A stretch of 8,428 bases of DNA from Candidatus Zixiibacteriota bacterium (lineage in GTDB: Bacteria > SM23-81): assembly GCA_030628225.1 (NCBI GenBank), contig DAOVRJ010000100.1, positions 1 through 8,428 on the forward strand, given 5' to 3'. This document shows, piece by piece, positions 2,274-8,117 of this stretch. The first letter of the stretch is position 1. Every line of letters starts with the position of its first letter. A program made the position numbers and the translations under genes. The notes under the pieces were generated by a model. It was given only the letters and a program-made list of their open reading frames with translations, ran no database searches and had not been told where the DNA came from.

Positions 2274-2954
2274 CTATCCGGCGAGACCAGTTCGTTTTTT
2301 CAGCTCCACGGCCACGGCATAAAAAGCGCCCAGAGGAATCCGCCTAACTGGGCCTCTTCCCCAGGGAGCAACCCTCAACGAGACGGGGACACCTGCCTGA
2401 CGCGCCACCCGGCGGATCATGGCACACAGGACTGGCGCCGAGTAGAAACGGGTCTGGGAGAAGATCGTCGGCCGGAATATCGCCCGTATCCTGCGGGAAA
2501 GAGCCAGGGGGCTCAAGGAGTTCAAGACACCCAGCACAACTCTCTCCCTGCTCACCCGCATGGCCTCCGCCAGGGCCATCTCGGGATGTGCGGTGGACTC
2601 CAGGGTGGTGATCATGGCCGAAACAGGGAAGCTTTTATCCGCAAAGGGAAGCTTTTCGGCTTCTCCCCGGCAGTAGAAGATCCCATTTCCGGAGAGCTCC
2701 CTGGCCCGGACCAGCATCCGTTCCTCCAGGTCCAGACCCCAGACTTCCCAGCCCAGCTCCCGGAACCATCGGGTGAAATGGCCCGTCCCACAGCCGATAT
2801 CCAGCAGGCGGCCTCCCCGCACCGGGCCGAGAAGCCCGGCTATGAGATCCTTCTCCAGCGCGTCGTACTTTTTCCCCGGGGGCGTTCGATACCACGCCTC
2901 ATAGCTTTCGGCCACATTTGCCCAGTTGGGCTGTGCCTTCGCCACCGACCTCAA
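2274..2954 (-). CDS. Class I SAM-dependent methyltransferase, last gene of the operon
   Basis: A 226-residue protein opening with a segment common in this family, ESYEAWYRTPPGKKYDALEK. Motif I is LLDIGCGTGHFTRWF (about 50-64), the acidic strand-2 residue is D75 in VWGLDLEERM, and GEAEKLPFADKSFPV (about 97-111) is the motif II/III region. The C-terminal third is basic (many Arg) and has no membrane segment. The frame opens with TTG at 2952-2954, overlapping the upstream ATPase stop as TTGA, with GCGGGGGA just upstream as a possible ribosome site; a GTG three codons later is an alternative. The overlap argues for coupled translation with the Fe-S ATPases. Substrate is unknown; similar methyltransferases are, as I recall, frequent neighbours of MinD-type ferredoxin ATPases in anaerobes. 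Confidence 0.88.
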   Translation of the reverse strand: MRSVAKAQPNWANVAESYEAWYRTPPGKKYDALEKDLIAGLLGPVRGGRLLDIGCGTGHFTRWFRELGWEVWGLDLEERMLVRARELSGNGIFYCRGEAEKLPFADKSFPVSAMITTLESTAHPEMALAEAMRVSRERVVLGVLNSLSPLALSRRIRAIFRPTIFSQTRFYSAPVLCAMIRRVARQAGVPVSLRVAPWGRGPVRRIPLGAFYAVAVELKKRTGLAG

Positions 2955-3817
2955 TCCCCCGCCAGGGCATAACTGATCTGACGCCAGAGCTTCTCGATCT
3001 CCTTGGCCACCAGCCCGCTGGAGTACTCCACCACCGTCTTACCCTGCACCATGGCCTTGGTAACCACCGTATCATATGGAATTCTGCCCATCAGCTTCAG
3101 CCGGCGCTGTTGACAAAAGGTCTCCACCTGGGCGGTCAGCTGCTCATTGATATCGAATTTATTAACGCAGATGAATGTCGGGATCTGAAAATGACCGGCC
3201 AGGTCCACCACCCTCTTCATGTCGTGAATCCCCGACAGCGTCGGCTCCGTCACCACCAGCACGGCGCTGGCGCCGGTGATCGATGAGATCACCGGACAAC
3301 CGATCCCCGGAGCCCCATCTGCCAGGATCAGATCCGATCCATCCTCCTGGGCCAGCAACTTGGCATTCTGGCGAACCAGAGCAACCAGCTTGCCCGAATT
3401 CTCCTCGGCGATGCCCAGCTTGGCATGCACCAGCGTGCCGAAGCGAGTATCGGAGATGAACCACTCGCCGGAGAGGTTTTCACGCAACTCTATGGCCTGC
3501 TCCGGGCAGAAGTGAACGCAGACCCCGCAGCCCTCACAGGCTATCTTATCCACCACATAATCTTCGGAGATGGCCTGGTAGCGGCACACTTCCCGGCACT
3601 TGCCACACTGCGTGCAACACTCAGCATCGATAACCGCCGATTTGCCGCTGCGAAATTCCTCCCTGTGTCTGATATGCGGTTCCAGGAGAAGGTGCAGGTC
3701 GGCGGCGTCCACATCACAGTCGGCCATCACTTTGTTCTTGGCCAGTGCGGCGAAAGAGGCAACGATGCTGGTCTTGCCAGCTCCACCCTTGCCGCTGATA
3801 ACTACCAACTCCTTCAC
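2951..3817 (-). CDS. NBP35/MinD-type P-loop ATPase with two 4Fe-4S motifs (second of pair)
   Basis: A 288-residue cytosolic SIMIBI-class ATPase. The deviant Walker A is SGKGGAGKTS (8-17), with signature lysine K10 and P-loop lysine K15. CDVDAADL (34-41) is the A' region. A ferredoxin-like insert follows, with Cys at 68, 71, 74, 78 and at 94, 97, 100, 104, enough for two 4Fe-4S clusters. Switch II is DGAPGIGCPV (167-176), with a Cys in the position that follows the loop. VVTEPTLSG and the base-recognition segment CVNKFDIN (about 217-224) complete the fold. The family includes the paired ATPases encoded in ORP operons of sulfate reducers, thought to help assemble metal clusters. It overlaps the upstream paralogue by 4 bp (ATGA), and the two probably act as a heterodimer. 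The exact cluster substrate is not shown by sequence. Confidence 0.93.
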   Translation of the reverse strand: MKELVVISGKGGAGKTSIVASFAALAKNKVMADCDVDAADLHLLLEPHIRHREEFRSGKSAVIDAECCTQCGKCREVCRYQAISEDYVVDKIACEGCGVCVHFCPEQAIELRENLSGEWFISDTRFGTLVHAKLGIAEENSGKLVALVRQNAKLLAQEDGSDLILADGAPGIGCPVISSITGASAVLVVTEPTLSGIHDMKRVVDLAGHFQIPTFICVNKFDINEQLTAQVETFCQQRRLKLMGRIPYDTVVTKAMVQGKTVVEYSSGLVAKEIEKLWRQISYALAGD

Positions 3818-4677
3818 GCTTTCACCTCCTCAGACGCAGACATGGTCTCGATCTTATCCATAAGCATCTGGAATTTGTCCTCATACTCCGGCGCCACATC
3901 CAGAATCAACTGTCCCCGGGAATATCCCCGGGCAATTCTCCGGTCATCGGGAATCTCCATCAGCAGGTCAATTCCCTCCTGGCGGCAATACTCAACTACC
4001 TTTCGGTCACCGACATCGGCGCGGTTGATGATCACCGCATGAGGAAGCTCCAGGGCTCGCACCATGCCCACGGCCAGCACCAGGTCATTGAGCCCGAAGG
4101 GCGTTGGCTCGGTGACCAGAATGCAGATGTCGCTGCCCCTGATGGCCTCGATGACCGGGCAGGAGGTCCCCGGCGGAGCATCGATAATGCTGGTACCCTG
4201 ATGGGAAACGCGCTCCTTGACCTCTCTGATCAAGGGTGGAGACATGGCCTCTCCTACTCGGAGACGGCCATGGACGAACTGAATTTCGTCGGCCCGTCCC
4301 TGCTCGATAACCCCGATCTCCCGCGGCGTTTCACAAATGGCTCCCTCAGGGCAGACCAGGGTACATCCGCCGCATCCATGACACAGCTCGGGAAAAGTGA
4401 GCACCTTCTCCTTGATGCACACGATGGCGCTGAACTCGCAGATCTGGCCGCACTGGCCGCAACCGGTGCATTTCTGCTCGTCAACCTGTGGGACCGGCAA
4501 ACTAACCGTCTCTGTCGTTTCGATAATGGGCTTGAGGAACAGGTGACAGTTCGGCTCCTCTACATCGCAGTCCAGTAACTGAACCTGCTGACCTTTTCTG
4601 GCCAAATTCATGGCCAGGTTTGTGGCCAGGGTCGTCTTTCCCGTGCCTCCCTTTCCGGAGGCGATGGCTATGATCAT
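3814..4677 (-). CDS. NBP35/MinD-type P-loop ATPase with two 4Fe-4S motifs (first of pair)
   Basis: A 287-residue paralogue of the next gene with the same architecture. Walker A is SGKGGTGKTT (7-16), with K10 and K14. CDVEEPNCHLFL (37-48) is the A' region and carries an extra Cys pair. Ferredoxin-type Cys sit at 70, 73, 76, 80 and at 99, 102, 105, 109. Switch II is DAPPGTSCPV (166-175), and VTEPTPFGLND (188-198) and INRADVGD (217-224) follow. Hydrolysis of ATP coupled to Fe-S cluster transfer or cluster-protein maturation is the expected role for the family. The start at 4675-4677 has GAGGGG about ten bases upstream; an upstream alternative is not needed. It ends inside the start codon of the partner ATPase. 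The two paralogues differ enough to be an old duplication and not a recent one. Confidence 0.94.
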   Translation of the reverse strand: MIIAIASGKGGTGKTTLATNLAMNLARKGQQVQLLDCDVEEPNCHLFLKPIIETTETVSLPVPQVDEQKCTGCGQCGQICEFSAIVCIKEKVLTFPELCHGCGGCTLVCPEGAICETPREIGVIEQGRADEIQFVHGRLRVGEAMSPPLIREVKERVSHQGTSIIDAPPGTSCPVIEAIRGSDICILVTEPTPFGLNDLVLAVGMVRALELPHAVIINRADVGDRKVVEYCRQEGIDLLMEIPDDRRIARGYSRGQLILDVAPEYEDKFQMLMDKIETMSASEEVKA

Positions 4678-4732
4678 ATCGCAAAACCCCTCATATTAAA
4701 AGGACCCGAAATCCATGCCACAGGCCAAACCA

Positions 4733-5530
4733 TCAACGCTTCAGGGTGATGACCTGGCCGACCCCGTTCTGGATGTAATTCTCCCCGTATGCCTCCCGGA
4801 ACATCTTTATAGCCTCTGGGCCGGTGCAATGGCAGGGGGAAACCTTGACCACACCCAGGTCCTGAAACTTATCCAGAATTTCGCCAACCCGCTGGCGAAA
4901 GGCTCCGCAAAGGTGAAATCCTCCCATCACTAAATAAGCAGATCCCTCCCCGATCTCACAGCCTCTCTCGATCACCCCGGTGATGCCCGGATGGGCACAG
5001 CCGGTGATGATGGCCAGTCCCTGGCCGGTTTTCAGGACGAGGGCCTGCTCGGGGATGACGTTGCCCATCTGCCCTGTCAAAAAAGCCCCCTGACAGATCT
5101 GTTCAGACTCCCTTATAACCACCAACTGGGCTCCCGCATCCGTCACCTTTCGTTTAAGAGACCTGGGAGAGGAATCCAGTAAATATACCTCTACCTGGCG
5201 GTTCAATCCGAGAAAATCGGCCAGCCCACCTGTGTGATCGCCGTGAAGGTGCGAGAGGACCACCACCTGGACTAGCTAGGGATCCAGACCCAGTTGCTCC
5301 ATGTTGGCCAACAGGATATCCCCATCTGCTCCCGTGTCGAAGAGAATGGTCTTCTCCAGCCCCTGAACCATGCAGGAAAATCCCCAGGAGGGCGTCAATC
5401 CCTCTATGAAGGCGTTGTTATCGTAGACGGTTGTGATGGTAATGACGTCCCTCTCGGTGCCCTCTCCAGACAGACCTCCAGCAAGAACCAACAACATCAT
5501 GCCCAGGCACGAAATCGCCAGCCGAAGCAT
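4733..5530 (-). pseudogene. Metallo-beta-lactamase-fold hydrolase interrupted by in-frame TAG
   Basis: One reading frame of 266 codons with an amber codon at 5276-5278 (codon 85) and no other disruption. The 84 N-terminal residues hold a hydrophobic leader (MLRLAISCLGMMLLVLAGG), then TTVYDNNAF and TILFDTGAD. The rest restarts with VVLSHLHGDHTGG, the H-x-H-x-D-H metal site, followed by GCAHPGI and the late histidine in VSPCHCTG. This fits COG1237-type hydrolases (dihydropterin-ribofuranosylaminobenzene phosphate synthase-like), here probably exported. The ATG at 5528-5530 is set by AAGGAG (5538-5543); an ATG further upstream lacks this. Related proteins usually have a Lys or Glu where the TAG stands. 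TAG is also the ordinary stop of at least five neighbouring genes, so routine readthrough is unlikely; nonsense mutation or sequencing error is the simplest view. A GTG at 5264-5266 could restart a leaderless fragment but has no clear ribosome site. Confidence 0.82.
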
Positions 5531-5537
5531 CCCCAAA

Positions 5538-5543
5538 CTCCTT
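5538..5543 (-). promoter_or_regulatory. Shine-Dalgarno that decides the MBL start
   Basis: AAGGAG seven bases upstream of the ATG at 5528-5530. It favours this start over an ATG 18 codons further upstream and places the hydrophobic leader right at the N-terminus. Confidence 0.75.
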
Positions 5544-5590
5544 CCCAAACCTCTGTCAGTGCTTGAAGCAAACTCCGGATACACTGGGAA

Positions 5591-6232
5591 CTATTTTCCC
5601 TTCTCCATCTTGGAGATTCGCTCCTGAATCTCCTTGAGCTGTTCCATCATTCCCTGGGCCTGGTCCTTCAGCATGCTCAGCTCCTGATCCTTGGTCATCT
5701 GGGGAGCAGGACCTCCCCCAGGAGCCCCGGCCATCCCGGCGCCCATCCCTCTTCCCATGCCCCGACCCATACCCATACCCCTTCCCATACCCATGCCCCG
5801 ACCCATACCGGGACCGGGCATCATCTGCTGGGGAGATCGAGGGGTAGCTTGCTGGCCCGCTGCATCGCCGGCCATGCCAAATTTGCTGTCCACATTGGGC
5901 CCGGTGGCTGCTGAGAAAGCTCCGGCCTTGAACTGCTCCACGGCATTCTTGACCGGACCGCTGACCCCGATGATCACCTGAATTCCGGCAGCGCCGAAAG
6001 TCTGAAAAGCGTTGGGACCGCAATTACCCGTCAACACCGTCTGGACTCCCCGCTGGGCCAGAAACTGAGCCGATTGGATTCCAGCACCTCCCCCAAGGGC
6101 AATGTTGGGATTCTCAATGGCCTCAAACTCCATGGTGTCGGGATCGACGACCAGAAAATAAGCACAACGGCCAAATCGGGCCTCCACCTGGTCATCAAGG
6201 GTGGGGCCTGTGGATGTCAGGGCAATCTTCAT
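5591..6232 (-). CDS. NifX/ORP-like metallocluster protein with Gly-Met-Arg repeat and DUF5320-like tail
   Basis: 213 residues in three parts. Residues 1-115 are a NifB/NifX-type dinitrogenase cofactor domain: MKIALTSTGPTLDD at the start, ARFGRCAYFLVVD (18-30), and the ORP-type signature LTGNCGPNAFQTFGAAGI (67-84) with C71. Proteins of this family bind or carry Fe-Mo or Mo-Cu-S clusters. Residues 140-176 are low complexity, GPGMGRGMGMGRGMGMGRGM and similar, with Met, Arg and Gly alternating. Residues 177-213 are a predicted coiled coil beginning APQMTKDQELSMLKDQA, closely like the tail of the DUF5320-like protein at 6528-6896. AGAGGGG lies about seven bases before the ATG. Gap to the FmdB gene is 18 bp and to the MBL gene 60 bp. 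Related NifX/ORP proteins are normally about 110-120 residues, so the C-terminal 95 are an addition. Confidence 0.9.
   Translation of the reverse strand: MKIALTSTGPTLDDQVEARFGRCAYFLVVDPDTMEFEAIENPNIALGGGAGIQSAQFLAQRGVQTVLTGNCGPNAFQTFGAAGIQVIIGVSGPVKNAVEQFKAGAFSAATGPNVDSKFGMAGDAAGQQATPRSPQQMMPGPGMGRGMGMGRGMGMGRGMGRGMGAGMAGAPGGGPAPQMTKDQELSMLKDQAQGMMEQLKEIQERISKMEKGK
5757..5808. repeat. Imperfect tandem repeat coding for Gly-Met-Arg tract
   Basis: The 16-base string ATGCCCCGACCCATAC occurs exactly at 5757-5772 and again at 5793-5808, 36 bases apart. Between and around it are degenerate CCCATACC units. The 36-base step equals 12 codons, and the products are the GMGRGMGMGRGM repeats of the NifX-like protein. 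Such tracts can change length by replication slippage. Confidence 0.8.
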
Positions 6233-6250
6233 GAAATGTCCCCTCTTTTT

Positions 6251-6457
6251 TCATGTGATCGGGCAGGTCCCCGTCGGACAGGAACCGCTCGCCGTGGTCG
6301 AGCCGCCAGCCATACCAACGTTCGGGACTGATAAGAGCTTTCGCACATCCTTGCTTCCACACTTCTCGCAACGGTGTCCCTTGGTGGAATTTGCCGAACT
6401 TTCCAGAAATTCCGTAACATGCTGGCACTTCTCACATTGATATTCGTAAATGGGCAT
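6251..6457 (-). CDS. FmdB-type small zinc-ribbon protein
   Basis: 68 residues beginning MPIYEYQCEKCQH, the hallmark N-terminus of the FmdB/CxxC regulatory family. One zinc ribbon is built from C8-x2-C11 and C30-x2-C33 (HRCEKCGSKDVRKLL). The tail is Gly/Ser/Thr-rich with two further cysteines (C60, C65) in ASGSCPTGTCPIT. Members are annotated as putative regulatory proteins from a link to formamidase genes, but their general function is unknown. The start at 6455-6457 is fixed by the family N-terminus and by GAGGTGAGG at 6461-6469; the longer frame to 6601 has no such support and overlaps the upstream gene. It lies 18 bp before the NifX-like gene in the same operon, so a zinc or Fe-S related role in that system is plausible but unproven. 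Confidence 0.9.
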   Translation of the reverse strand: MPIYEYQCEKCQHVTEFLESSANSTKGHRCEKCGSKDVRKLLSVPNVGMAGGSTTASGSCPTGTCPIT

Positions 6458-6460
6458 TAT

Positions 6461-6469
6461 CCTCACCTC
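6461..6469 (-). promoter_or_regulatory. Shine-Dalgarno that decides the FmdB-type start
   Basis: GAGGTGAGG just upstream of the ATG at 6455-6457, selecting the 68-residue product over a 116-residue extension. Confidence 0.75.
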
Positions 6470-6483
6470 GATGTAACAAGCAT

Positions 6484-6520
6484 GGCTCTCAGGGGAATAC
6501 CGGTCATCCCCCTGAGAGCC
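6484..6520 (-). other. 12-bp perfect stem-loop between DUF5320-like and FmdB genes
   Basis: GGCTCTCAGGGG (6484-6495) pairs perfectly with 6509-6520 around a 13-base loop. It fills most of the 70-bp gap and begins eight bases after the DUF5320 stop. No T-run follows on the minus strand (ATGCTTGTTAC), so it is not a classic intrinsic terminator. It could act as an mRNA processing or stability element, separating levels of the upstream Gly-rich proteins from the downstream NifX/ATPase genes, or as a weak attenuator. Confidence 0.6.
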
Positions 6521-6527
6521 GGACATA

Positions 6528-6896
6528 CTACTTTTTCTCCTCTTGGCCAGCCGCCTCCAACTCCTGGATCCGCTTGTTGATATCCTGGAGAGCATCATCA
6601 AAATACTTGGCCTGACCTTTCAGGCCTTCCAGCTCCTGCTCAGAGGTCATCTGAGGAGCATAGGACTCGCCAAATGGCTGGTATGGCGACATACCGACCC
6701 CATAAGGTGCCCCACCAGGAAAACCTGCTGCGGAGTAACCGAAGCGCCAACCGCGACCCCAACCACCCCGACCCCGGAAACCGCGTCCGGGAATTGGACT
6801 TACGTACCCGGGCATATTGTAGCCGGCACAATATCCGGCGCCACGTCCGGTCATCGGCCCCATCCCCATAGGTCCTGTTCTATCTCCTCCTGGCAT
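6528..6896 (-). CDS. DUF5320-like Gly/Met/Arg-rich protein with coiled-coil tail
   Basis: 122 residues. Residues 1-26 are the family motif: MPGGDRTGPMGMGPMTGR, then GAGYCAGY. Residues 35-80 are rich in Gly, Arg, Trp, Tyr and Pro (GRGFRGRGGWGRGWRFGY). Residues 81-122 form a charged coiled coil, APQMTSEQELEGLKGQAKY then FDDALQDINKRIQELE, typical of DUF5320 C-termini. No signal peptide or membrane segment is visible. Function of the family is unknown; members sit beside Mrp/MinD ATPases and NifX-like proteins in anaerobes, according to what I know of the family. AAGGAGGA at 6904-6911 is seven bases upstream of the ATG. The tail module is shared with the NifX-like protein at 5591-6232, suggesting the two interact with each other or with a common partner. 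Confidence 0.88.
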   Translation of the reverse strand: MPGGDRTGPMGMGPMTGRGAGYCAGYNMPGYVSPIPGRGFRGRGGWGRGWRFGYSAAGFPGGAPYGVGMSPYQPFGESYAPQMTSEQELEGLKGQAKYFDDALQDINKRIQELEAAGQEEKK

Positions 6897-6903
6897 TTTC
6901 TTA

Positions 6904-6911
6904 TCCTCCTT
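6904..6911 (-). promoter_or_regulatory. Strong Shine-Dalgarno of DUF5320-like gene
   Basis: AAGGAGGA with a 7-base spacer to the ATG at 6894-6896; near-perfect anti-16S complement, indicating bacterial-type initiation and high expression. Confidence 0.8.
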
Positions 6912-6933
6912 TCAACAAATTTTCAAAAAACCA

Positions 6934-7401
6934 CTACCAACCCCTACCAAACCACCCTCGCCCGCGACCTGCGCCACGTCCCCAACCACGGCCGAAACCC
7001 ATCCCAAATGATCGCGCCGGGAATCCACGTCCGTAGAAACCTCCGCCACCATAGGGGTATGTTGCCGGGTATCCCATTGGTCCGAACGGAACTCCGGCAC
7101 GTCCCCAGGAAGGGTTCATGTATCCAGGGGCCGAGTAACCAGCACAGTAGCCGGCTGCCCTGCCCGTCATGGGCCCCATTCCCATGGGTCCTGTTCCGTT
7201 TCCTCGCGGCATCTGGATCATCTCCTCTCTATCTGTTTGAAGTTCTCCCAAAGAATAACCCATCGGCACACCTCTGCGGCCCACGTAGCCTCGAATGCTG
7301 GAGTTATCCTCTCTACCTGGACTCTTCAAAACGCAGTAGCCCAGACCCTGCCCCGTCATCGGACCTGCTCCAGCAGGCCCTGTTCCATCAAATCCCGGCA
7401 T
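6934..7401 (-). CDS. Two-module DUF5320-like Gly-rich protein
   Basis: 155 residues from the ATG at 7399-7401, chosen over a TTG two codons upstream because GGAGGTGA (7408-7415) stands six bases before it. Two complete copies of the family N-terminal motif lie in one frame: residues 1-23 (MPGFDGTGPAGAGPMTGQ, then GLGYC) and residues 64-86 (MPRGNGTGPMGMGPMTGR, then AAGYC). The linker between them is hydrophilic (REDNSSIRGYVGRRG ... GELQTDREEM). The last 50 residues are Gly/Arg/Phe/Tyr-rich, ending RGAGRGRGWFGRGW, without the coiled coil seen in the next gene. The second motif has its own AGGAGA eight bases upstream of an ATG, so a shorter 92-residue product could also be made. It looks like an in-frame fusion of two formerly separate small genes. 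Function unknown. Confidence 0.85.
   Translation of the reverse strand: MPGFDGTGPAGAGPMTGQGLGYCVLKSPGREDNSSIRGYVGRRGVPMGYSLGELQTDREEMIQMPRGNGTGPMGMGPMTGRAAGYCAGYSAPGYMNPSWGRAGVPFGPMGYPATYPYGGGGFYGRGFPARSFGMGFGRGWGRGAGRGRGWFGRGW
7221..7226 (-). promoter_or_regulatory. Possible internal Shine-Dalgarno for second DUF5320 module
   Basis: AGGAGA lies eight bases upstream of the internal ATG at 7210-7212, which begins the second copy of the motif. It may be a relic of a separate gene or allow internal initiation. Confidence 0.45.
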
Positions 7402-7407
7402 TGCCAA

Positions 7408-7415
7408 TCACCTCC
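7408..7415 (-). promoter_or_regulatory. Shine-Dalgarno that decides the two-module protein start
   Basis: GGAGGTGA six bases upstream of the ATG at 7399-7401; the TTG in the same frame at 7405-7407 would sit inside the spacer. Confidence 0.8.
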
Positions 7416-7459
7416 CTCTCATTCCCTTGTGGCCTGAAGGCCATCGTTCTCCTCCCAGC

Positions 7460-7681
7460 TCACTGGGCCCGGGTCATCATCGCCCCGCAGCCGGGACAGG
7501 TGATGCTGTTACAGGGCGCTCCTCTCTTGTGGGGCACCGTCTTGCCGCAGTTGGGGCAAACGCAGTTGCCTCCAAGCCCCAGGCCAAAACCTCCCATCCT
7601 GCCTCCTCCTCCACCCTGACCCACTCCTCTGCCGGTTGCTGGACCCTTTCCGGCAGGGCCCGTTCCATCACCTCTTGGCAT
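7460..7681 (-). CDS. Small DUF5320-motif protein with C-terminal zinc ribbon
   Basis: 73 residues. The N-terminus MPRGDGTGPAGKGPATGR is the same motif as in the next two genes. A Gly-rich linker (GVGQGGGGGRMGGFGLGLGG) follows. The C-terminus has CPNCGKTVPHKRGAPC and CPGCGAMM, giving two CPxCG knuckles plus one intervening Cys, a probable zinc ribbon or rubredoxin-like metal site. The ATG at 7679-7681 is supported by AGGAGGTG (7688-7695), overriding a longer frame to 7705. It overlaps the end of the NifU-like gene by 14 bases. The protein is probably cytosolic. Function is unknown; the link of the Gly-rich motif to a zinc ribbon suggests a metal-related or scaffold role. Confidence 0.85.
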   Translation of the reverse strand: MPRGDGTGPAGKGPATGRGVGQGGGGGRMGGFGLGLGGNCVCPNCGKTVPHKRGAPCNSITCPGCGAMMTRAQ

Positions 7682-8117
7682 TTGACTCACCTCCTGTTTT
7701 TTCACAATCCTTCAGCGCCTGATGCAACGTGTCCACGGCCAGCTTGGCGCAGTGCATGTGCGATTCCGGCAGTCCACCCAGAACCTTGAGCAGCTCCTCC
7801 TGGCCGATAGCGACCGCCTCTATCAGGGTTCGCCCGGAAACCATCTGGCTGAGCATGCTGCCGCAGGCCACCGTCGGCCCGCAACCATCCGTTAAAAATC
7901 CAATCTCCGCGATCTTATCCCTGTCCAGCTTCAGACCGACATACATGGTGTCGCCACATGGACCGGTGATGGTGGCCTTTCCGGCTGGATCCGGGATCTC
8001 CTTCAGGTTTTGAGGCTGGAGATAATTGTCGATCACCTGGGGGGAAAAGATCTTACGATCCTCCTCCAGGATGAGCTCCTGCAGCTGTTTGGCCCACTGA
8101 TGGAAAGGTTTGTTCAT
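7668..8117 (-). CDS. NifU/IscU-type Fe-S cluster scaffold protein
   Basis: 149 residues from the ATG at 8115-8117; a GTG at 8133-8135 would add six residues and cannot be excluded, as neither start has a strong ribosome site. The U-type scaffold pattern is clear: VIDNYLQPQNLKEIPDP, then ITGPCGDTMYVGL with C54 and D56, IGFLTDGCGPTVACGSML with C79 (and an extra C85), and HMHCAKLAVDTL with C123. The three ligand cysteines and the Asp that assists cluster release are all in place. An N-terminal helix (HQWAKQLQELILEEDRK) precedes the domain. The protein would assemble nascent 2Fe-2S or 4Fe-4S clusters in the cytosol for the downstream ferredoxin ATPases or the NifX-like protein. It has no NifU C-terminal domain. 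No cysteine desulfurase is seen in the window. Confidence 0.92.
   Translation of the reverse strand: MNKPFHQWAKQLQELILEEDRKIFSPQVIDNYLQPQNLKEIPDPAGKATITGPCGDTMYVGLKLDRDKIAEIGFLTDGCGPTVACGSMLSQMVSGRTLIEAVAIGQEELLKVLGGLPESHMHCAKLAVDTLHQALKDCEKTGGESNAKR
7688..7695 (-). promoter_or_regulatory. Shine-Dalgarno that decides the zinc-ribbon protein start
   Basis: AGGAGGTG six bases upstream of the ATG at 7679-7681, inside the 3' end of the NifU-like gene. Confidence 0.8.

Follow-up and report, generated by a model that had tools for sequence, protein, structure and literature searches.

An ORP-type operon of anaerobes with DUF5320 proteins: gene content, conservation and a possible role in iron-sulfide handling

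Gene content and conservation of the operon

The window analyzed here is an 8,428-nucleotide stretch of DNA that makes up the whole of contig DAOVRJ010000100.1 (C182) in the genome of a Candidatus Zixiibacteriota bacterium (2.34 Mb in 306 contigs, 92% complete). By sequence comparison, the locus is an ORP-type operon and an instance of a gene cluster that is widespread among anaerobes but poorly understood. Profile searches of the window proteins identified a NifU-type scaffold, three DUF5320-type proteins, an FmdB-family zinc ribbon protein, a NifX/ORP-like carrier, an MBL-fold hydrolase, and two ferredoxin-containing P-loop ATPases (ATP1 and ATP2). All operon genes in the window are on the minus strand (Table 1), and the intergenic distances range from overlaps of 4–14 bases to gaps of up to 70 bases. 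A preliminary description of the window had listed these proteins, with the DUF5320-type proteins recorded as three proteins sharing a glycine-rich motif, as a single-strand run with overlaps or short gaps between positions 2951 and 8117. Every one of them was recovered where it had been placed, and the layout was the same, although that list lacked the DUF5320 match in the carrier tail, a methyltransferase, an upstream DUF89 gene, and a stop codon within the MBL gene.

The operon extends beyond this interval at both ends. At the 3′ end, the methyltransferase gene overlaps ATP2 by 4 bases, and at the upstream end, a DUF89/ARMT1 gene runs off the contig. The N-terminal part of DUF89 is encoded on another contig of the same genome (C232, locus L056), with about 16 codons missing between the two contigs as judged by comparison with the related locus L042 (described below). 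The genes on C232 have the orientation of the window operon and code for a PAS sigma54 activator, a NifX protein, a DUF5320 protein, a second NifX protein (NifX2, L056_581), and the first part of DUF89, which gives the operon three NifX genes and four DUF5320 genes.

Table 1. Features of the operon within the window, listed in the direction of transcription
Feature	Coordinates	Strand	Profile matches
DUF89/ARMT1-like damage-control phosphatase, C-terminal 82 residues	8179..8427	-	PF01937 67.6 bits
NifU/IscU-type scaffold (NifU_N)	7668..8117	-	PF01592 85.9 bits
DUF5320-type protein with C-terminal zinc ribbon (CVCPNCGK...CNSITCPGCG)	7460..7681	-	PF17253 24.9 bits, below cut-off
DUF5320 protein, two fused motif copies	6934..7401	-	PF17253 78.1 bits, two stretches
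DUF5320 protein	6528..6896	-	PF17253 93.4 bits
FmdB-family zinc ribbon protein	6251..6457	-	PF09723 52.4 bits, TIGR02605 53.2 bits
NifX/ORP-like carrier (Nitro_FeMo-Co)	5591..6232	-	PF02579 86.3 bits; tail PF17253 38.6 bits
MBL-fold hydrolase	4733..5531 (about)	-	PF00753 22.8 bits on 3′ part; intact orthologue 44.4 bits
ATP1, MinD/NifH-like P-loop ATPase with inserted 2x[4Fe-4S] ferredoxin	3814..4677	-	CbiA, Fer4
ATP2, ATP1 paralogue with inserted 2x[4Fe-4S] ferredoxin	2951..3817	-	MinD/CbiA
SAM-dependent methyltransferase, operon 3′ end	2274..2954	-	PF08241 66.2 bits

The sister genome G001, from the same family and another genus, contains the whole set twice and in the same order, on two contigs (L041 on C62 and L042 on C87), with proteins that are approximately 61–83% identical to those of the window. 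The methyltransferase occupies the same position in L042 (67% identity). The L041 copy ends inside ATP1 at a contig end, and the two copies in this genome have diverged from each other. In L042, the set is followed by MrpORP (546.7 bits) and then directly by a fusion protein (L042:3406-4683), which is a cation-efflux (CDF) transporter with a C-terminal Di-Nase (NifX) domain.

Beyond the sister genome, a sample of 290 genomes yielded ATP1 in 100 and DUF5320 in 94. ATP1 occurs, among others, in Planctomycetota, Desulfobacterota, Chloroflexota, Bacillota, Omnitrophota, Spirochaetota, Bathyarchaeota, Methanophagales, and Methanosarcina. Among the 97 best ATP1 matches, DUF5320 lies within 10 kb in 65, NifX is near in at least 69, and both are near in at least 54, the NifX counts being lower bounds. 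A further 40 loci were drawn from these matches and are biased to clustered cases; the unbiased sample consists of 80 named loci picked by ATP1 sequence alone. Within 8 kb and on the same strand, these 80 loci have NifX (75), ATP2 (74), DUF5320 (46), Mrp (41), NifU (26), FmdB (19), MBL (18), the activator (15), DUF89 (13), and the methyltransferase (13), and the partner families are almost absent farther than 8 kb from ATP1. Rare adjacency in related genomes, which the preliminary description had named as an outcome that would refute its interpretation, is thus the opposite of what NifX and ATP2 display. The gene cluster does not reflect chance, because the same order occurs twice in the sister genus and other phyla have the core set as well.

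The preliminary description had also regarded the glycine/methionine-rich proteins as an expanded set of this particular operon. A local expansion was rejected because DUF5320 is widespread, usually encoded beside these ATPases, and because the sister genome has two copies of the full set. The core of NifX, ATP1, and ATP2, with or without DUF5320, is one of the more frequent gene clusters in anaerobes for which there is no explanation, and a text search of the literature found no paper on the function of DUF5320 or of the ATPase family.

The carrier, the ATPase pair, and the DUF5320 proteins

The best solved relative of the carrier is ORP from Desulfovibrio gigas (PDB 2wfb; phmmer E 3.7e-21). 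The AlphaFold2 model of the carrier consists of a Di-Nase domain (residues 1–117, pLDDT ~98), a disordered stretch (~120–178), and a confident helix (181–212). In a Foldseek comparison, the model matched 2wfb with a TM-score of 0.91 normalized to ORP, a root-mean-square deviation of 1.0 Å, and 47% identity, whereas the matches to NifX and NafY were far weaker (E 5e-4 and 6e-4). The genome also encodes MrpORP (559.6 bits, cut-off 450) on contig C293, outside the window operon. Judged from the modeled fold, the presence of MrpORP, and likely sigma54 control (see below), the kinship with ORP is strong, and the earlier proposal of an ORP-type operon that encodes scaffold, ATPases, and carrier together is upheld.

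The same likenesses in fold, sequence, ATPase pair, MrpORP, and sigma54 control would also fit a conventional ORP system, in which the carrier binds a Mo-Cu-S cluster that is matured or positioned by the ATPases and MrpORP, as in Desulfovibrio. In a tree of Di-Nase domains (97 rows, 121 columns), the starred clade that includes D. gigas ORP also contains NifX2 of the same operon, which favors such a system, but the tail-bearing carrier groups with other tail-bearing and ATP1-linked carriers beside this clade and outside it, which does not. The tree is poorly resolved, IssA of Pyrococcus furiosus, whose clade belongs to IPR003731, is not among its rows, and the position of MTH1175 is unsettled; as 121 columns are too few for a firm answer, the tree was discarded as an arbiter between ORP and IssA.

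The carrier tail is 66 residues long with 22 glycines, five arginines, one lysine, and no glutamate, and its C-terminal helix is common to DUF5320, for which the curated PF17253 cut-off is 27 bits. Carriers in other phyla have Gly/Met/Arg tails, and some continue beyond the tail into a ferredoxin, a zinc ribbon, or the DUF5320 helix; these fusions argue that the carrier and the DUF5320 proteins work together. Loci with carriers whose tail region leads into either an eight-cysteine ferredoxin-like domain or a zinc ribbon resembling the one in the DUF5320-type protein of the window are L104, L065, and L067; L113, L133, and L078.

ATP1 and ATP2 have the Walker A motifs GKGGTGKT and GKGGAGKT, respectively, and two CX2CX2CX3C sets each. 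Their genes are adjacent with a 4-base overlap, and this adjacency is kept across phyla. The Walker A motif, the eight ferredoxin cysteines, and Cys173 of ATP1 are conserved in 21 out of 21 homologues. In several genomes, a single open frame of approximately 615–675 codons contains both the ATP1 and the ATP2 match, which suggests that the pair probably forms one complex. Sequence-only searches retrieved no solved structure spanning the whole ATPase, and scores against the MrpORP profile (62.0 bits for ATP1 and 37.1 bits for ATP2) are far under the cut-off of 450. As members of the MinD superfamily, the ATPases could belong to a cell-division or polar-positioning system, as was first proposed for the ORP complex; in D. 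vulgaris, septum placement was the function suggested for this complex, and MrpORP is polar (PMC3897727, PMC6345978). However, the conserved partners among the labeled families are iron-sulfur or metal proteins (the unlabeled neighbors were not checked for division genes), and likeness to MinD is common to the metal-cluster ATPases NifH and Nbp35, making a role in cell division very improbable.

The first 80 residues of 108 DUF5320 proteins average 30% glycine, 11% arginine, 1% lysine, and 13% aromatic residues with a mean net charge of +6.5; the 108 proteins have MPGGDGTGPMGMGPMTGRGAGYCAGY in common, and an alignment of 48 members shows Cys23 to be invariant. In the AlphaFold2 model of the protein encoded at 6896-6528, residues 1–80 form a disordered Gly/Arg/aromatic region (pLDDT ~47) ahead of a helix at residues 85–121 (pLDDT 82–95). 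The protein with the fused motif copies (7401-6934) contains 44 glycines, 15 arginines, and 21 aromatic residues with a net charge of +9. Its second motif copy starts at Met64 (7212) and is preceded by its own Shine-Dalgarno-like sequence, and this module may therefore also be made separately. The protein with the zinc ribbon (7681-7460) has a net charge of +7 and is 73–74% identical to its orthologues in L041 and L042.

The composition of these proteins recalls the tail of P. furiosus IssA, a glycine-rich segment of about 70 residues with seven cations (mostly arginine), aromatic residues, and the only cysteine of the protein, which has been proposed to wrap anionic thioferrate (PMC5524996). 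The DUF5320 proteins resemble this tail in composition and context, a likeness that is separate from demonstrated homology. By analogy, we propose that they could act as a separately encoded, cationic Gly/Arg/aromatic-rich, thioferrate-binding tail like that of IssA.

Regulation and accessory genes

Expression of the operon is likely under sigma54 control. A sigma54 site that fits the consensus (TTGGCACGTTCCTTGCC) immediately precedes the first gene on C232, and similar sites occur at the same place in L041 (TTGGCATGCTCCTTGCC) and L042 (TTGGCATACTCCTTGCC). Just upstream is the gene for the activator (EBP), which has Sigma54_activat, PAS, and Fis-type helix-turn-helix (HTH_8) domains and the loop GAFTDA, and rpoN is present in the host genome. 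The orp operons of D. vulgaris are likewise controlled by a sigma54 promoter and a cognate activator (PMC3897727). An inverted repeat (ATTTATGC-N7-GCATAAAT) located approximately 100–125 bases before the sigma54 site on C232 is a candidate binding site for the activator. Sigma54 control as a general rule of these operons was not supported, as the activator occurs in only 15 of the 80 loci and the strict promoter pattern in few.

The NifU protein has three conserved cysteines, Cys54 (GPCGD), Cys79 (DGCGP), and Cys123 (HCAKLA), and scores 98.7 bits against TIGR03419, under the equivalog cut-off of 187.9 bits. The MBL gene contains an in-frame TAG at 5278-5276, where both copies in the sister genome have a glutamine codon. 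The frame is intact on either side of this codon, and the third-position divergence on both sides and the similar identity before and after it (0.60–0.67) suggest that the TAG is probably either a recent nonsense change, which would have broken the gene, or an assembly error. Recoding of the stop, as pyrrolysine or otherwise, was rejected because PylS was not found in the host genome, TAG ends several neighboring genes, and the relatives have glutamine. The N-terminus of the MBL protein (5531-5450) and those of the L041 and L042 orthologues contain a signal-peptide-like hydrophobic stretch, and the protein may thus be exported, unlike its operon partners.

After gaps, the operon is followed by a second methyltransferase (2130-1552) and a YggS-type protein that binds pyridoxal phosphate (929-255), both of which are outside the conserved operon. 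Searches with Rfam found no structured RNAs in the window or in C232, and no tRNAs were found in the window.

Cargo, proposed function, and comparison with known systems

D. gigas ORP as isolated binds a Mo-Cu-S cluster, and such a cargo was implied by the preliminary description. This cargo is doubtful for the present operon. MoaA, ModA, and WtpA were not detected in the host genome or its relatives (G001–G004, among them the three nearest), and 47 of the 85 genomes with both ATP1 and DUF5320 (46 of 84 without the host) had no match to MoaA or ModA, however weak. MoaA occurs in 40% of the genomes with ATP1 compared to 63% of the others, a negative association that, like the other molybdenum gene counts, is subject to shared ancestry among the genomes. 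The molybdenum ABC permease profile TIGR01581 was uninformative as a marker since it also matched unrelated permeases in 14 out of 14 control genomes. The lack of molybdenum genes in more than half of the genomes argues that molybdenum is not the general cargo of operons with ATP1 and DUF5320. Taken with the position of the tail-bearing carrier outside the ORP clade, it makes a conventional Mo-Cu system unlikely here.

With a host that is seemingly unable to use molybdenum, iron-sulfur handling is the likelier task of the operon. One form this could take is a dedicated route that assembles iron-sulfur clusters and delivers them to certain low-potential enzymes without any storage, in which NifU would build the clusters, the carrier together with Mrp, ATP1, and ATP2 would deliver them, and the DUF5320 proteins would serve as chaperone-like adaptors. 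A NifU with three conserved cysteines in the operon and the frequency of NifU (26) and Mrp (41) among the 80 loci are consistent with delivery, and in vitro, MrpORP passes iron-sulfur clusters to aconitase as well as Orp3/Orp4 (PMC6345978). On the other hand, most loci are without NifU, in contrast to the near-constant presence of NifX and the ATPase pair, no recurring target enzyme occurs nearby among the labeled open reading frames (the unlabeled frames were not identified), and the highly cationic low-complexity proteins are left unexplained. Delivery without storage is therefore a possible but rather doubtful account.

We give an even chance to the explanation that this ORP-type operon of strict anaerobes serves to bind, store, and pass along metal-sulfide clusters that are anionic and most likely consist of iron-sulfide. 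From the anatomy of the operon (gene order, conservation, promoter, and domains), we infer the cargo, its storage, and the step taken by the ATPases as follows. The activator would sense redox, sulfide, or metal cues to switch on the operon, and NifU would supply iron-sulfur units. The globular domain of the carrier could nucleate an anionic metal-sulfide, which its cationic tail and the separate DUF5320 proteins would wrap or gather into a phase, comparable to the role proposed for the IssA tail, while the helices common to the carrier and the DUF5320 proteins may hold these proteins together. ATP1 and ATP2 would then use ATP and low-potential electrons, carried by their four [4Fe-4S] clusters, for loading or reductive release of the cargo. 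FmdB, the DUF5320 zinc ribbon, DUF89, MBL, and the methyltransferase would have accessory roles.

Several points weigh against storage of iron-sulfide. Disordered regions rich in glycine and arginine also serve in RNA binding or in forming condensates that have nothing to do with metals, and we know of no metal measured on any family member with a DUF5320 partner. The carrier tail lacks cysteine, unlike the tail of IssA, and the carrier domain is nearer to ORP than to MTH1175, an IssA homologue, albeit in a poorly resolved tree of a short domain. An extension of at least 40 residues after the domain is present in only 27 of 102 ATP1-adjacent carriers, and not all of these extensions are glycine-rich. 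Moreover, the absence of molybdenum genes may reflect incomplete draft genomes or other transporters (TupA was not searched for).

A bolder form of the iron-sulfide storage explanation, which we put forward tentatively and consider rather unlikely as a whole, is that the DUF5320 proteins are free-standing IssA-like tails and that the operon is an ATP-controlled iron-sulfide store, sigma54-regulated in this organism, and a bacterial anaerobic counterpart of ferritin. Such a store would be present in approximately one third of the sampled bacterial genomes across phyla, as well as in archaea. The variant pathway of the preliminary description holds in that scaffold, ATPases, and carrier are encoded together in an ORP-type operon, but not in its local expansion of glycine/methionine-rich proteins, and its Mo-Cu cargo is questionable. 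With its links to both ORP and IssA, and with no molybdenum genes detected in most genomes that have ATP1 and DUF5320, what was vaguely a “cofactor operon” becomes a claim open to test on how anaerobes buffer iron and sulfide. If this claim is right, a function could be assigned to DUF5320, and what the ORP family carries physiologically should be re-examined.

Among known systems, the ORP operons of Desulfovibrio (orp3/4/5/8/9) also encode twin ATPases with two ferredoxin motifs each (Orp3/Orp4) and an ORP-type Di-Nase carrier (Orp8), under a sigma54 promoter with a cognate activator; Orp5 of the Desulfovibrio set is a small [2Fe-2S] protein. MrpORP (Orp9) is encoded in the sister operon L042, whereas the MrpORP of the window host is located elsewhere. 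Unlike the two divergent operons of Desulfovibrio, the activator and all genes are co-directional in the window joined with C232 and in L042, forming one operon. The operon described here has three NifX and four DUF5320 genes and additional genes for NifU, FmdB, DUF89, MBL, and the methyltransferase; its carrier has a Gly/Met/Arg tail and a helix, and its host is without detected genes for molybdenum uptake or cofactor synthesis.

The chaperones NifX and NafY of the iron-molybdenum cofactor in the NIF system, together with NifU, share the Di-Nase fold and the scaffold family with this operon, although the fold match of the carrier to them is much weaker than to ORP. Nbp35, ApbC, and MrpORP are P-loop NTPases tied to iron-sulfur delivery, the last of which is found in the host genome and in the sister operon; ATP1 and ATP2 differ from them by an inserted ferredoxin domain and by scores far under the MrpORP cut-off. 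IssA, the thioferrate storage protein of P. furiosus, likewise combines a Di-Nase domain with a glycine- and arginine-rich disordered tail in a strict anaerobe. The single tail cysteine of IssA has no equivalent in the carrier and may instead correspond to the invariant Cys23 of the DUF5320 proteins, which match the make-up of the tail. In contrast to IssA, a helix follows the tail, the ATPases and scaffold are co-encoded, and the putative tail functions are mostly distributed over separate genes.

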